Source: Candidatus Bathyarchaeota archaeon
GTDB lineage: Archaea; Thermoproteota; Bathyarchaeia; Bathyarchaeales; Bathycorpusculaceae
Reading direction: 5' to 3'
Length of the DNA: 64,000 nt
Assembly (NCBI GenBank): GCA_026014705.1
Contig: JAOZHU010000015.1
Span: 62,001 to 126,000, forward strand
Shown here: positions 3,241-44,996 of the stretch, one piece after another
Position numbering within the stretch: position 1 is the first letter of the stretch
How the letters are laid out: every line of letters starts with the position of its first letter
Notes under the pieces: generated by a model
What the model was told of the DNA's origin: nothing
What the model saw: the letters and a program-made list of their open reading frames with translations, nothing else
Databases searched by the model: none
Program-made: the position numbers and the translations under genes

Positions 3241-5187
3241 ATGGTTTCCGAAAACCCATTCGGTGAGTTCCGCCGAGAATGCGAAGGCGCTTTAGGGTAT
3301 GCGCTGGAAAAGGTTCTTCCCGAAATTAGAGTTGCAGCTTTGCCTTTAAGCAAACCGCCGAACATCGAGTTTGGGCAGTTAGCCTCTTCGCTGTGTTTTG
3401 AGTTGGCTAAGAAGCTTAATCAGAAACCGCAAGCTTTAGCTGAGCAATTAGTTAAAGCCATTGACAAAGTGGACTTCTCTTTAATCGCCAAGGTGTCTTC
3501 TGTTGGCGGCTACGTGAATTTCCACGTGGATTTCGCCAAGTTCTCGGCTTTGACTCTCGCGTCAATTAGGCAGTTGGGTTACGGTTATGGCTTTTTGAAA
3601 ACTGCGAAGCCGCTTAAGGTCATTATTGAGCACACAAGCGTTAATCCACTTCATCCCATCCACATTGGGCAGGCAAGGAACCCGATGCTGGGTGACGCTT
3701 TGGCGCGTATTCTCCAGAGCAGAGGACACGCGGTTTCCAAGCATTATTACATTGACGATGTGGGTCGCCAGTCTTCAGTCATCGCTTACGGCTACGTTAA
3801 GCTGGGTAAGCCGCAGCCAGACGAGAAAGCAGACCACTTCGTGGGTAAAATCTACACTGTCACGAGCTGCATAGTGGAAATTAACCGTTTGAAGAAAGCG
3901 CTTGTCATGGCGAAAGCCGTTGGGGACATGGATGAAGTCGCCAGAGTCAATAAGGAACTTGACGATTGGGTATCCATCGCCGCTGAGCTTAAAGAAAAGT
4001 TTCCGTCTATCTTCGACAAGCTTTTGGCAAAGATAAGCGAAGACGAGAACCCTGAAGAAGAAATCAACAAGCTTAACCGCGCTTACGAAAAAGGCGAGCC
4101 TGCTGCTAAAGCGCTTATTCGCGAAGTGAGCGAGCTTTGCTTGGAGGGCTTCAGAGAAACGCAGAAACGCGTCGAGGTTTTCTACGACTCGTGGGATTGG
4201 GAAAGCGACTTCGTGTGGAGCAGCCAAGTCTCTGAAGTTCTCCAACGGTTAAAGGCTTCTCCGTTTGTTTTCAGCGAAGGTGGCGTCTTGGAGTTTGATG
4301 CTGAAAAAACCGCGCGTGAATTGCAGTTGAAAGCGAAGTTGGGTTTAAGTGAGGCTCATGAGATTTCGCCGTTGACGCTTGTGCGGGCTGACGGCACTAC
4401 CCTTTATACTACTCGGGATGTTGCTTACACTTTGTGGAAATTCAGCAGGTCGGAGAAGGTCATTAACGTCATCGGTATGGAGCAGTCTTTGGCGCAGTTG
4501 CAGTTGAAGCTTTTGCTGTATGCTTTAGGCTATGGCCAATATGCTGAGAATTTTGTGCATTTCGCTTACAATTTGGTCACGTTGCCGGGTTATAAGATGT
4601 CCAGCCGTCGCGGTCGCTACATCACTTTTGACGAGGTTTTGGATGAAGCGGTTGAACGTGCTTATGAGGAGGTTTCGAAGCGTTCGCCGAGTTTGACTGA
4701 GGCTGAGAAACGGAAAATCGCCAGCTTCGTAGGCGTCGGTGCGGTGCGTTACGCGCTTGTGGATGTTGATGCGTCAAAGCCTGTAGTTTTCACGTGGGAC
4801 AGGGTGTTGAATTTTGAGACCAACAGTGCGCCGTACGTGCAGTATACTCATGCTCGGGCGTGCAGCATCTTGCGTAAGGCTGAGAAGCAGCCTGAGACGC
4901 CTGCTTTCGAGTTGTTGTCTGAAAGGCTGGAGCGTGAGCTCGTTTTGGCTTTGGCGGGTTTTCCTGAGATATTCGTTGAAGCGGCGGATTACTTGAAGCC
5001 TAATTTGATTGCCGATTACGTGAACGCGCTTGCCGACAAGTTTAACACTTTCTATAATGCTTTGCCTGTTTTGAAGGCGGAGCCGTTGGGGCTCAGTGAT
5101 GCGCGTGTTGTTTTGACTGACGCTATTCACATTGTGCTTCACAACGCGTTGGATTTGATTGGTGTGGTGGCGCCTGAGAAAATGTGA
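3241..5187 (+). CDS. argS: Arginyl-tRNA synthetase
   Basis: Class I aminoacyl-tRNA synthetase of 648 residues that charges tRNA-Arg. An N-terminal additional domain (about 1-115) precedes the Rossmann fold. The HIGH motif is HIGQ at residues 141-144, within NPLHPIHIGQARN, and the KMSKS counterpart is KMSSRR at about 452-457. The C-terminal helical anticodon-binding domain includes FETNSAPYVQYTHAR, which is typical of ArgRS. A TTG at 3238 is in frame, but ATG 3241 sits nine bases after AGGAG (3227-3231). Between about residues 185 and 285 there is a charged helical insertion common in archaeal forms. A tRNA-Arg(CCG) gene lies in the same window at about 36.0 kb. Confidence 0.97.
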   Translation: MVSENPFGEFRRECEGALGYALEKVLPEIRVAALPLSKPPNIEFGQLASSLCFELAKKLNQKPQALAEQLVKAIDKVDFSLIAKVSSVGGYVNFHVDFAKFSALTLASIRQLGYGYGFLKTAKPLKVIIEHTSVNPLHPIHIGQARNPMLGDALARILQSRGHAVSKHYYIDDVGRQSSVIAYGYVKLGKPQPDEKADHFVGKIYTVTSCIVEINRLKKALVMAKAVGDMDEVARVNKELDDWVSIAAELKEKFPSIFDKLLAKISEDENPEEEINKLNRAYEKGEPAAKALIREVSELCLEGFRETQKRVEVFYDSWDWESDFVWSSQVSEVLQRLKASPFVFSEGGVLEFDAEKTARELQLKAKLGLSEAHEISPLTLVRADGTTLYTTRDVAYTLWKFSRSEKVINVIGMEQSLAQLQLKLLLYALGYGQYAENFVHFAYNLVTLPGYKMSSRRGRYITFDEVLDEAVERAYEEVSKRSPSLTEAEKRKIASFVGVGAVRYALVDVDASKPVVFTWDRVLNFETNSAPYVQYTHARACSILRKAEKQPETPAFELLSERLERELVLALAGFPEIFVEAADYLKPNLIADYVNALADKFNTFYNALPVLKAEPLGLSDARVVLTDAIHIVLHNALDLIGVVAPEKM

Positions 5188-5516
5188 TAATCCAGCGTTG
5201 ACCATGCTGAAAATTAGCTGTAGGCTTATTTGGTTCTGTGAGCGGTGCGCGGAGTATACCCTCTATAGGTTTCTGCATTGAACCGCTATTAGGCTTCAAA
5301 TATGCTTGTGCGGGGCTTTAGCGTTTAATGGCGTTGCATTGTCTCTTTGAGGGTGGTTTATGGTGCGGCTGAGCGTGATTTTTCCTTAGGTTCGCGTTGG
5401 GTATTGTGTCTACGGTTTGCTGAGTGCTGGCTGGTTTGGGTGGGCGGAGACGGTTTGCGAGTTTTGGGAAAAATTTTAAGTGGGGTTAAGGCTTTTGTTT
5501 GCACGTGAAGCTGTCC
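5188..5516. other. Intergenic region with probable promoter for the fusion gene
   Basis: A G/T-rich stretch of about 330 bases without a coding region I can support. AAAAATTTTAAG at about 5469-5480 is a plausible TATA box, 25-45 bases upstream of the TTG 5499 and ATG 5517 candidate starts, which would give a very short leader. No RNA gene was recognised. Confidence 0.4.
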
Positions 5517-10093: not shown

Positions 10094-10139
10094 ACGCCAA
10101 ACCACACAAAAACTCCCCAACCACCCCAAACAACCACTT

Positions 10140-10169
10140 CTATTTATAGTATATAAAAGGGGGGTATAG
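10140..10169 (+). promoter_or_regulatory. Promoter element A: TATA box plus G-run, upstream of dhs paralogue 1
   Basis: CTATTTATAG, then TATATAAAA (10150-10158), then GGGGGGTATAG (10159-10169). Nearly the same arrangement occurs at 12409-12438 (minus) before the second dhs paralogue and at 44774-44804 (minus), with a weaker match at about 40966-40990. The TATA box would place transcription near 10180, giving a leader of about 70 nt. The GTATAG after the G-run is part of the shared block, so conservation goes beyond a basal TATA box. Confidence 0.65.
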
Positions 10170-10252
10170 AAAAAAATCACACAACAACACACACAAACAC
10201 AAACAACAAATTTCAAATACAACCCAACTAATCTAAAACGAGGTGCACACTA

Positions 10253-11317
10253 ATGACCGAACCATACCTCACCAAAAAACTCCAACCCATCCACGTAAAA
10301 CAAAAAACCATCTCACAACTCCTCACAGAAATGAGCCGAACAGCCTACCAAGGAAGAAAACTAGGCGAAACAGTCGACATCTGGGAAAACATGATAAAAG
10401 AAAAAAACCTCACCATCGCCATGGGCTTAGCAGGCTCCATGAGCACCGCAGGACAATGGACAATAATCAACTGGCTCATCCAAAACCGCTACATCGACGT
10501 ACTCGTAAGCACAGGCGCCAACGTATCCGAAGACATCGTCGACGCCATGGGATTCGGCTACTGGCAAGGCACCCACATGGCAAACGACGAAGCACTACTC
10601 AAAGCAGACATCAACAGATACTACGACGTATTCGGCAAAGAAACCGACTACCGCAAAATGGAAGAACTCATCACAGACTTCGTCCTCACCCTCAAAACCG
10701 ACCACCCATACTCATCCCCAGAATTCTTCCACCTACTCGGCAAATATCTCAGCAACAAAAAAATCCCCGCCATAGCCGCAACCGCCTACGAAAACAACAT
10801 CCCCATATTCAGCCCAGCCATGGTCGACAGCGCCTACGGCGAAACCTTCCTCATGGCAAAAAACCAAGGACACAACATAATCCTCGACAGCGTAAAAGAA
10901 TTCGACCAATTCGTCACCATAGGCACCAAAACCCGAGACATCGGCGTAATCTACATCGGCGGAGGAGTGCCAAAAGACCTAACACAACTCATCGCCATAT
11001 CCGTATCACCGAAAACCAACGACCAAGGCGTAACAGGAAGAGACGGACACCTGCGCAAAGGACTCCAAGAATACTACTACCCACACAAGTACGCCATACA
11101 AATAACCACCGATTCCCCGCAATGGGGCGGATTATCAGGCTGCACGCTGGAAGAAGCCGTAAGCTGGGGCAAAATCAACAGCGAAACAGGAAAAAGAGCC
11201 GTCTGCTACTGCGACGCAACCATCGCCTTGCCGCTGATAACGCACGCGTTGAACGAGCGTGTGAAGACAAAACGCAAAGGACCCGACATGACGTGGCTCT
11301 TCAAGGACTTAACTTAA
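10253..11317 (+). CDS. Deoxyhypusine synthase family protein, paralogue 1
   Basis: 354 residues with the DHS fold: an N-terminal segment, MGLAGSMSTAG and VSTGANVSED in the NAD-binding part, and near the C-terminus EEAVSWGKI, with the catalytic-type lysine at residue 307. DHS transfers the aminobutyl group of spermidine to a lysine of aIF5A. This protein is longer and more divergent than the neighbouring paralogue and could act on another amine acceptor, as homospermidine-synthase-like members do. It ends four bases inside the 3' end of the convergent paralogue. The coding strand is extremely A/C-rich and poor in G. GAGGTG lies 7-12 bases before the ATG. Confidence 0.82.
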   Translation: MTEPYLTKKLQPIHVKQKTISQLLTEMSRTAYQGRKLGETVDIWENMIKEKNLTIAMGLAGSMSTAGQWTIINWLIQNRYIDVLVSTGANVSEDIVDAMGFGYWQGTHMANDEALLKADINRYYDVFGKETDYRKMEELITDFVLTLKTDHPYSSPEFFHLLGKYLSNKKIPAIAATAYENNIPIFSPAMVDSAYGETFLMAKNQGHNIILDSVKEFDQFVTIGTKTRDIGVIYIGGGVPKDLTQLIAISVSPKTNDQGVTGRDGHLRKGLQEYYYPHKYAIQITTDSPQWGGLSGCTLEEAVSWGKINSETGKRAVCYCDATIALPLITHALNERVKTKRKGPDMTWLFKDLT

Positions 11318-12249
11318 ACATCGTTCAACCTGCTCAGCAACGCGTTCACCATCACAGGCAGTATCACCGAAGCGTCACCTTCAATCATAACGCGCTTTGC
11401 CTGCGCGCTGATTTTTCCCCATGAAACCGCTTCCCGTGGTCGCGCACCGCTGAGGCTGCCATCCCACTCGTCTGCCGTGCTTATGTATACGACGTAGTCT
11501 AAGCCGTCTTTGAATTGGTTCCACCATATTGTGTGGTGTTTGGAGATTCCTCCGCCGATGATTAGTGCGCCTGTTTTTTTGGCGGTGAAGACTATGTCGC
11601 TCAGTTCGCCTGAGTCTTTCAGCAGATTAAGCTTGAAGTTGTGGTCTTGGCTGAAGAGCCATGTTTGGTAGCCTGTTGCGCCGTCTGTTATGCCTGGTAC
11701 GTAGATTGGTATGTTGTTTTTTGCTGCCCAGTAGAGTATGGAGGTTTCGTTGCAGATGCGTTTGCCTATTTCTTGGCAGAGTTGGCTGGTTGAGATTTCG
11801 CGTGTGCCTTCTTGCCATAGGTTTTCTAATAGTATTTGCATTTTTTGTTCGATTATTGTGCCGTAGCTGTCGTTTGGGACGAGTACGTTGCCTAGGCGGT
11901 TTATGCCTTTTTCGTGCAGTTTGGCGTCGTTCATTGTGAATGAGCCTTTGTAGTAGTTTCGCCAGCATCTTGCCATGTCGTGGTCTATTGTGCCGCAGGT
12001 GGTTATGATTACGTCGATGAGTTTGCGTTTTGTGAGTTCTTTGAGGATTCCGCGTGTGCCTGTGGCTACGAGGTTTCCTGTGAATGAGAGGAATTTGGTG
12101 CAGTTGGGTGTTTTTATCATGCGTTCTAGTATTTTTGTGCCTGTGGCTAGTTTTCCGGCTGTGAATCCCCATGCGTTTTCCATTTGGGTTACGAGTTCGT
12201 TTACTGTGGTTTCTTTGTGTGGTTCGTAGTCTCTGATGGGTTCGTTCAT
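11314..12249 (-). CDS. dys: Deoxyhypusine synthase, paralogue 2 (more canonical)
   Basis: 311 residues, the usual length of archaeal DHS. Visible motifs are FTGNLVATGTRG, IITTCGTIDHD (NAD site), GIT-DGATGYQTW, IGGGISKHHTIWWNQ, STADEWDGSLSGA and REAVSWGKI, with the lysine at residue 279 that carries the enzyme-imine intermediate. It would make deoxyhypusine on aIF5A, needed for translation. It is convergent with paralogue 1, overlapping it by four bases, and its promoter element at 12409-12438 matches that of paralogue 1. Like its partner, its coding strand is A/C-rich. Which paralogue is the true aIF5A enzyme is inferred from motif conservation only. Confidence 0.85.
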   Translation of the reverse strand: MNEPIRDYEPHKETTVNELVTQMENAWGFTAGKLATGTKILERMIKTPNCTKFLSFTGNLVATGTRGILKELTKRKLIDVIITTCGTIDHDMARCWRNYYKGSFTMNDAKLHEKGINRLGNVLVPNDSYGTIIEQKMQILLENLWQEGTREISTSQLCQEIGKRICNETSILYWAAKNNIPIYVPGITDGATGYQTWLFSQDHNFKLNLLKDSGELSDIVFTAKKTGALIIGGGISKHHTIWWNQFKDGLDYVVYISTADEWDGSLSGARPREAVSWGKISAQAKRVMIEGDASVILPVMVNALLSRLNDV

Positions 12250-12408
12250 TGCGTGTTCCTTCTTGTTGTGGTTTTAGTATTCGGGTGTTAGGATAAATAG
12301 GTGTCGAAGCGTTTGCGGTTTGTTCAGTTGGGCGTTTGATGGTTTCGGGTTTAGGCGGCTGAAGCGGAGTTTGGGGCGAAGCTTTTATGCGCTGGCGCTT
12401 GGGAAAAA

Positions 12409-12438
12409 CTATACCCCCCTTATAAATACTATAAATAG
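12409..12438 (-). promoter_or_regulatory. Promoter element B: TATA box plus G-run, upstream of dhs paralogue 2
   Basis: Read on the minus strand it is CTATTTATAG, TATTTATAA, then GGGGGGTATAG, followed by TTTTTCCCA. Element C at 44.8 kb shares this downstream TTTTTCCCA and the next 15-20 bases approximately (GCrCyAGmrCGCA). The element lies about 160 bases before the dys start, so the leader would be long (about 130 nt). Confidence 0.65.
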
Positions 12439-40950: not shown

Positions 40951-40992
40951 CACTATATAAAGGAACTATAAATAAAGGGGCTGTAGTTCTTT
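40951..40992 (+). promoter_or_regulatory. Promoter-like element D (weaker copy of elements A-C)
   Basis: CTATATAAAG (40953-40962) and ACTATAAATAAAGGGG (from about 40965), then CTGTAGTTCTTTCC. This matches the TATA, G-run, TATAG, TTTTTCCC order of element C, with changes. On the + strand no gene follows: the next genes (TFS and DUF99) are on the minus strand. If active it would make an RNA across 41000-41100. It may also be a decayed copy. Confidence 0.45.
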
Positions 40993-41103
40993 CCGCGTGT
41001 CAAAACTGAGCAAAACAGGCAGCTTACACCGAAAAAGTGCAGCCAGTATCAAAGCAGCAACAAAAGATACCGATGTGCTTTCGCAATAGATGAAACACTA
41101 CAG

Positions 41104-41457
41104 TTAACTGTACTCTCTGAATGTAAAGTTGCATTTCGTGCAACGCAAAAACTGCGTTGAGGATTCATCGGCGCCTCGAGTCTGCACTTGCCAAACGTAA
41201 GCCACATTGTTACCACATTTTGGGCATTCAACCCTGACAGTAGGCAGCGTCCGCAATTTCTGCTCCTCTTTTCCAATAACCGCGACAAGTTTCTGCGGGT
41301 TATGCTGTATGACCTTGCCAACAGGAGGTTCAACTCTGTTGGTTGATTCATGCTTCTTGTACCCGCATTTCGGACAAACAAGCGCCAACGCGGCTTCCTT
41401 CCCGCTCTTGGCCTTCTTAGGCTCAAGACGAGAGCCACATTTTGGACAGAATTCCAT
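41104..41457 (-). CDS. tfs: Transcription factor S (TFIIS/RpoM-like)
   Basis: 117 residues with two zinc ribbons: MEFCPKCGSRL ... LVCPKCGY (about 1-35), and CPKCGNNVAYVWQVQTRGADESSTQFLRCTKCNFTFREYS at the C-terminus. The C-terminal ribbon carries the acidic pair (DE in RGADE) that reaches the polymerase active site and stimulates RNA cleavage in stalled complexes. Length and order match archaeal TFS. Its neighbour on the same strand is DUF99, 55 bases upstream. Confidence 0.95.
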   Translation of the reverse strand: MEFCPKCGSRLEPKKAKSGKEAALALVCPKCGYKKHESTNRVEPPVGKVIQHNPQKLVAVIGKEEQKLRTLPTVRVECPKCGNNVAYVWQVQTRGADESSTQFLRCTKCNFTFREYS

Positions 41458-44531: not shown

Positions 44532-44996
44532 GTTTTTGCTGCTAGAGTATAAGTTGGTGTCTGGTTTGGTGTATCATTTTAGTTTCTGTGCTGCTCAATA
44601 AACCTTTTGTTCAGATTAGGCAGGTTGCTTTGGGGTTTTGCAGGGGGTGACGAGGTGCAGGCTTGGTTTATTTTTCGTAAGGGGAGGCTGTCGGAAGCAT
44701 TTTTTCAGCTTTTTGTTGTTAACTGTTGCTTCGGTTGTTGTTGCAAGTTCTGCGTTCTAGTGCGTGGGAAAAACTATAGCCCCCTTTATATAAACTATAA
44801 ATAGATTTTGAATGGATTTTTGAGGGTGTTTGAGAGAACTTTGAATTCATGGTTTTGCTTTATAGCTGATTGAGAAAGGTTTTGTGATTTCTATCTAAGT
44901 GGATGTATCATCTACTGTGTCCTTCTTTTCTTTTTTCGCCTATATTCGTTCCTGCCTTGAGTTCTCAGCAAATCCAAACTGCTCAGTTCCATGCCT
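44532..44996. other. Intergenic region with element C
   Basis: About 465 bases between topA and csl4, both on the minus strand. It holds element C. The forward open frame of 65 codons at 44607-44804 has no family features and reads across element C on the wrong strand, so it is rejected. The stretch 44805-44996 is T-rich and holds nothing I can support. Confidence 0.45.
44774..44804 (-). promoter_or_regulatory. Promoter element C (same family as A and B)
   Basis: On the minus strand: CTATTTATAG, TTTATATAAA, GGGGGCTATAG, then TTTTTCCCA and a further stretch resembling that after element B. TATA, G-run, TATAG and TTTTTCCC keep the same spacing as A and B. It lies 243 bases before csl4. The long conserved downstream part with element B suggests a shared leader or small RNA. 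Confidence 0.6.

Follow-up and report, generated by a model that had tools for sequence, protein, structure and literature searches.

A promoter-like interspersed repeat, apparently undescribed, in one family of Bathyarchaeota

A shared element near two dhs genes

The locus raises the question of whether a TATA box with an adjoining G-run, found before each of two deoxyhypusine synthase (dhs) paralogues, is a control element of these genes or part of something more widespread. The window, that is, the whole 64,000-nucleotide stretch of Candidatus Bathyarchaeota DNA that was analysed, carries four copies of the element (A to D) and the following features.

10139-10186, plus strand: element A, A-run spacer subtype, from its sequence and a profile match of 30.7 bits
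10150-10158, plus strand: TATA box of A
10159-10164, plus strand: G-run of A
10165-10169, plus strand: TATAG of A
about 10179-10182, plus strand: start predicted for A from the TATA spacing
10253-11317, plus strand: dhs paralogue 1, downstream of A (Pfam DS, E 1.9e-88)
11314-12249, minus strand: dhs paralogue 2, downstream of B (Pfam DS, E 3.6e-112)
12389-12438, minus strand: element B, T-run spacer subtype, profile match of 46.5 bits, grouped with the repeat family
about 12396-12398, minus strand: predicted start of B
40964-40999, plus strand: element D, a weaker copy, profile match of 26.0 bits
43947-44531, minus strand: Csl4-like exosome gene, downstream of C (Pfam ECR1_N, E 5e-12)
44753-44805, minus strand: element C, T-run spacer subtype, profile match of 48.8 bits and exact pattern match
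about 44761-44763, minus strand: predicted start of C

The two dhs paralogues converge, and their ends share four bases where the stop codons meet (10253-12249). The preliminary description had placed a shared element at 10140-10169 (plus) and 12409-12438 (minus), and a consensus derived jointly from A, B and C is indeed matched there with 0 mismatches in A and 1 in B, against 0 matches expected from 100 shuffles. C (44774-44804, minus) and the weaker D (about 40951-40992, plus) are likewise present where they had been located. C, B, A and D are the only strong matches in the window to a 54-position, sequence-only profile trained on 35 copies from the source genome; as A to D were in the training set, their bit scores are not independent evidence, and the whole-genome counts are stronger.

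B and C had also been described as staying similar further downstream (TTTTTCCCA, then GCrCyAG). This similarity is genuine and is explained by the T-run spacer subtype and the predicted-start motif that both copies have; element D has the downstream part of it as well (GGGGCTGTAGTTCTTTCCG). The view that the element is more than a basal TATA box beside a G-run was borne out, and the additional conserved part lies at the predicted start site. An Rfam search of the window returned only a tRNA, which rules out a known RNA family as the identity of the element.

A repeated core with promoter geometry

The genome-wide motif search that the preliminary description had proposed gave 33 matches to the short pattern in the source genome (2.0 Mb, 44 contigs) and 3 to the reversed pattern, a control that rules out a chance TATA box beside a G-run; the genome was analysed through such searches and through the sequence surrounding their hits. 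With the profile, 84 copies were found at E 0.01 or better; these E-values are rough, and 76 of the 84 lie below 1e-4. When the 84 copies were stacked, the conserved blocks followed in the order T[AT]T[AT][AT]A[AT]A, RGGGGC, TATAG, an 8-base spacer and TCCnAGC[AG]CA. Conservation extends from the beginning of the TATA box to just past the predicted +1 and drops outside these limits.

In the profile of the 84 copies, the TATA box occupies offsets -5 to +3 and a conserved GCR offsets 25-27, consistent with the archaeal core-promoter geometry of a TATA box about 23-30 bp before a purine start, from which the start was predicted. Transcription in Pyrococcus furiosus starts 23 bp downstream of the final conserved A of the TATA box (PMC6640164), and with this spacing the +1 of the element falls on the conserved GCR. 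Spacers are of about three types (T-run, ACTGCTCC and A-run), and which of them occurs does not visibly depend on gene orientation. Upstream of the TATA box, the BRE position shows a weak preference for A in the source genome and a near-fixed TTCAACC in genus g7. The G-run with TATAG (GGGG-CTATAG) is the best conserved part of the stack, ahead of the TATA box, a pattern that would equally suit a site bound by a different protein. No conserved RNA was seen after the element: conservation falls off shortly past the predicted start, and at aligned sites nothing is conserved directly after the core.

A dhs gene and other targets checked have promoters of their own

The first dhs gene of the window has a separate promoter about 50-60 bases downstream of element A.

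10205-10252, plus strand: own promoter and leader of dhs (AAATTTCAAATAC ... CTAATCTAAAACGAGGTGCA), separate from A and conserved in most of the Bathyarchaeota dhs orthologues compared

Most of these orthologues keep AAATTTCAAATA, followed by a leader that ends in ACGAGGTGCA, and the core was found in none of the approximately 46 orthologue upstream regions compared; two such regions (L063 and L064) carry the companion U module described below, in antisense orientation. The proposed link to the dhs paralogues thereby loses its support, and dhs-specific control was rejected: the repeat family is not a dhs control switch. Own promoters distinct from the element were also seen at the GAPDH and HdrC genes, and a winged-helix gene has its own TCTTAAAT box, conserved with or without the element. 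As a separate promoter is retained at every gene checked, the element comes in addition to it. It does not look like the main short-leader promoter of the adjacent gene, given a median distance of 133 nt to the start codon and own promoters in between where checked.

The genes to which sense copies point in the source genome, several of them named from sequence and not from a family search, include rpL3, rpS15, aIF1A, aIF1, NAC, thermosome, GAPDH, fructose-bisphosphate aldolase, Hsp20, Trm112, an Elp3-like gene, MoeA, ilvD and a Snf7-like gene. In genome G211, they include Gar1-like, Hsp20, TrmO, archaeosine TGT, malate dehydrogenase, NikR and MFS transporter genes. The targets are mixed housekeeping genes. 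The comparison of orthologous promoters, suggested earlier as a test of the element, gave a divided answer: the element is absent at dhs orthologues, but it is far above chance genome-wide and common to other genes across genera.

Placement relative to genes

Placement was assessed with gene calls from a simple caller, which missed some genes. All but one of the 84 copies (83) are intergenic, in both orientations; 31 are tandem sense, 20 divergent, 14 convergent and 15 tandem antisense, and 4 lie at contig or patch ends. Fifty-one copies point at a gene start, and for these sense copies the median distance to the start codon is 133 nt. Antisense copies directed toward the 3' end of a gene make up 30 of 81; their median distance to the stop codon that they face is 37 nt, and 17 of the 30 lie within 45 nt of it. 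In tandem gaps, sense copies exceed antisense copies by 31 to 15 (P 0.026), and among the loci fetched from genus g7, antisense layouts exceed sense ones. Element D faces the 3' end of a TFS-like gene at 41104-41457 (minus), which has a Pfam TFIIS zinc ribbon match; because the caller missed this gene, D lies about 105 nt from its stop codon rather than 514 from the next gene.

Distribution and site sharing

In a pattern search of 201 genomes of the class, nearly all matches fell within the family of the window, and two single hits lay outside it. A profile search of 81 genomes of this family, with stricter filters that lose weak copies, gave 72 matches in the source genome, 71 in G211, 38 in G176, 27 in G099, 25 in G034 and 23 in G108. 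No profile match was obtained in 56 of the 81, including species of the same genera as carriers.

Eleven sites, on the same side of orthologous genes, are common to G211 and the source genome, where about 1 was expected for the 43 G211 elements considered; these were the best-scoring copies, a choice that may inflate sharing. At these 11 sites, little can be aligned beyond the element and the gene's own promoter. Antisense as well as sense sites are common to different genera, and the spacer subtype can differ at one site between genera. For two species of genus g7, the majority of the copies fetched have a partner at the orthologous site of the other species. One pair of copies in this genus lies just beyond the 3' end of the 16S rRNA.

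When one G211 locus was compared in G216, the orthologous segments lay on different contigs and no clean empty site was obtained. The synteny of two g95 genomes is broken at both elements of a locus (L263 against C83, C86 and C87 of G216). Elements may therefore be rearrangement points, with fragmented assemblies as the alternative.

A companion module and local copies

Upstream of many core copies there is a second repeat, the U module (CATATTTGAAGCCTATTAGTGGTTCATTGCAGAAACCTATAGAGGGTCTATCCC), which has a sharp left edge, stands alone or doubled and recurs in relatives. Element B carries a remnant of this upstream module (CGCCTCCTCCAACG). Six tandem pairs of the core were found, every pair on the same strand and 42-62 bp apart. 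Near-identical inverted copy pairs with abrupt ends were also present, one of 90 bp at 100% identity and one of 73 bp at 97%, lying 3.8 and 7 kb apart, respectively. The 90-bp pair (L261:1663-1752 and L261:5486-5575) is centred on a core element and suggests recent local copying or gene conversion. The ends of its two copies are not inverted repeats of each other, and inspection by eye revealed no target duplication. No terminal inverted repeats were seen in the family, and an unusual hairpin was absent in four of five sequences folded.

Candidate carriers, enzymes and factors

Three pattern scans of IMG/VR were without match, and a viral origin was discarded. An additional TFB as the reader of the element was rejected because most genomes, element-bearing or not, have two full TFB genes. 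An autoregulated winged-helix regulator was rejected on similar grounds: its gene (C38:102106) occurs in 28 of 30 genomes, both where the element is found and where it is not. Mobilisation by a Y1/RAYT enzyme found no support, since Y1 transposase is absent from 13 of 14 element-bearing genomes tested and present in 1. The searches revealed neither a mobilising enzyme nor an empty site with target duplication.

A portable core promoter as the preferred reading

The best explanation, to which we give a probability of about 0.5, is that one family of Bathyarchaeota harbours short, mosaic, interspersed repeats made up of portable promoter modules, and that the element forms the core of these repeats. 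The promoter-like repeat is genuine and apparently previously undescribed; no report on promoters or repeats in Bathyarchaeia was found in the literature searched. The core would represent a complete core-promoter cassette, composed of TATA, G-run, TATAG, 8-base spacer and AGCRCA at the predicted +1, in which the G-run directly downstream of TATA takes the position of the eukaryotic BREd and may be read by TFB. The family probably spread by copying of this core into intergenic gaps, alone, in tandem or behind a U module. Judged from the sequence, TBP and TFB most likely bind the element and RNA starts in the element's own direction. Sense copies would then give an extra upstream start to the genes at which they point, and antisense copies an antisense start at the genes whose 3' ends they face. 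The promoter role would be one without an obvious product, as 30 of 81 copies face a gene 3' end and nothing like a conserved RNA was seen downstream of the element. It is doubtful that the element goes further and forms a distinct archaeal promoter class, in which a dedicated factor would read the G-run and TATAG and about 80 sense and antisense starts would be switched on together.

The chief alternative is that the element serves as a site for some DNA-binding protein, such as a repressor or a chromosome-organising or boundary protein; it would then look like a promoter without being used as one, and its orientation relative to genes would matter little. The predominance of GGGG-CTATAG in the stack agrees with this, as do the occurrence of both orientations, the sharing of antisense and sense sites alike between genera and the lack of anything conserved directly after the core in aligned sites. 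However, the spacing from TATA to +1 and the purine at the predicted start closely fit a core promoter. We know of no cognate protein for the element, and the winged-helix gene beside one copy, occurring as it does in genomes with and without the element, is not an obvious matching factor. We consider such a protein site possible, though rather improbable. The operator of a translation and RNA-metabolism gene set proposed in the preliminary description, that is, a regular promoter of those genes, is far less plausible and in our judgement very improbable. Its attraction lies in sense targets such as rpL3, rpS15, aIF1A, aIF1, the two dhs genes, csl4 and the Elp3-like gene, together with the excess of sense copies in tandem gaps; but the element is missing at dhs orthologues, the remaining targets belong to metabolism, chaperones, transporters and regulators, and the genes keep their own promoters. 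The 30 antisense copies directed into gene 3' ends and the antisense excess among the loci fetched from g7 also argue against it.

A non-autonomous mobile repeat of the MITE-like or REP-like kind, with an incidental promoter appearance and with common sites produced by repeated insertion into the same gaps, is unlikely in our estimation. It would account for a copy number that varies between 0 and more than 70 in one family, for near-identical local copies with sharp ends, for the synteny breaks between G211 and G216 and for spacer subtypes that differ at the same site between genera. Against this, no terminal inverted repeats were seen, four of five sequences folded had no unusual hairpin, the 90-bp copies showed no visible target duplication, the Y1 transposase is missing from nearly all element-bearing genomes tested, and both positions and motif are kept over the species divergence in genus g7.

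Relation to known systems

The eukaryotic BREd is a G/T-rich block directly downstream of TATA, where TFIIB touches DNA. The element has a block in the same position but differs in its near-invariant G-run followed by TATAG, and the contact with archaeal TFB is putative. REP and BIME sequences are small modules that combine as intergenic mosaics, often right behind stop codons. The modules described here do the same, but the element is not palindromic, and the RAYT-type Y1 transposase is missing from most genomes that bear it. Correia elements and other bacterial MITEs are short multicopy intergenic repeats that bear promoter sequences beside genes (PMC10969869). The element resembles them in being short, multicopy, intergenic, patchy among related genomes and provided with promoter sequence near genes; unlike them, it has neither terminal inverted repeats nor target duplications that could be found, and its conserved unit is the promoter itself. 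The element resembles the archaeal TATA/TBP-TFB core promoter in having a TATA box with a predicted purine start at the usual distance from it (PMC6640164). It departs from that promoter in the fixed GGGGGC-TATAG block that fills the gap downstream of TATA, and in the placement of its copies, which either supplement a gene's own promoter from further upstream or face the end of a gene. As for an upstream BRE, it is weak in the elements of the source genome, while those of genus g7 have a near-fixed TTCAACC.

Promoter-carrying repeats are known in bacteria, the Correia elements among them. What is conserved here, by contrast, is an entire archaeal core promoter that includes an unusual G-run and TATAG block; it is distributed through a lineage without cultured members, and different genera have it at the same gene ends. 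Provided that it is transcribed, archaea would have in it a portable means of gaining new sense and antisense transcripts, and it would offer a natural experiment on whether TFB is steered by the sequence just downstream of TATA.

Observations at individual loci

A lone U module was identified from its sequence in the window.

5241-5304, minus strand: U module, CATATTTGAAGCCTAATAG...TGCAGAAACCTATAGAGGGTATAC, matching the U consensus over 37 bases

It is directed toward the 3' end of a gene whose end lies at 5187. In genus g7, the 16S rRNA copies mentioned above (L239 and L240) lie just past the 3' end of the rRNA and point back toward it in both species. Four loci of G130 (L236, L239, L254 and L260) have GGGAGGGG where those of its sister species G155 (L214, L240, L242 and L238) have an ordinary G-run, as though the copies in one genome had changed in concert, although the pair L254/L242 may not be the same site.
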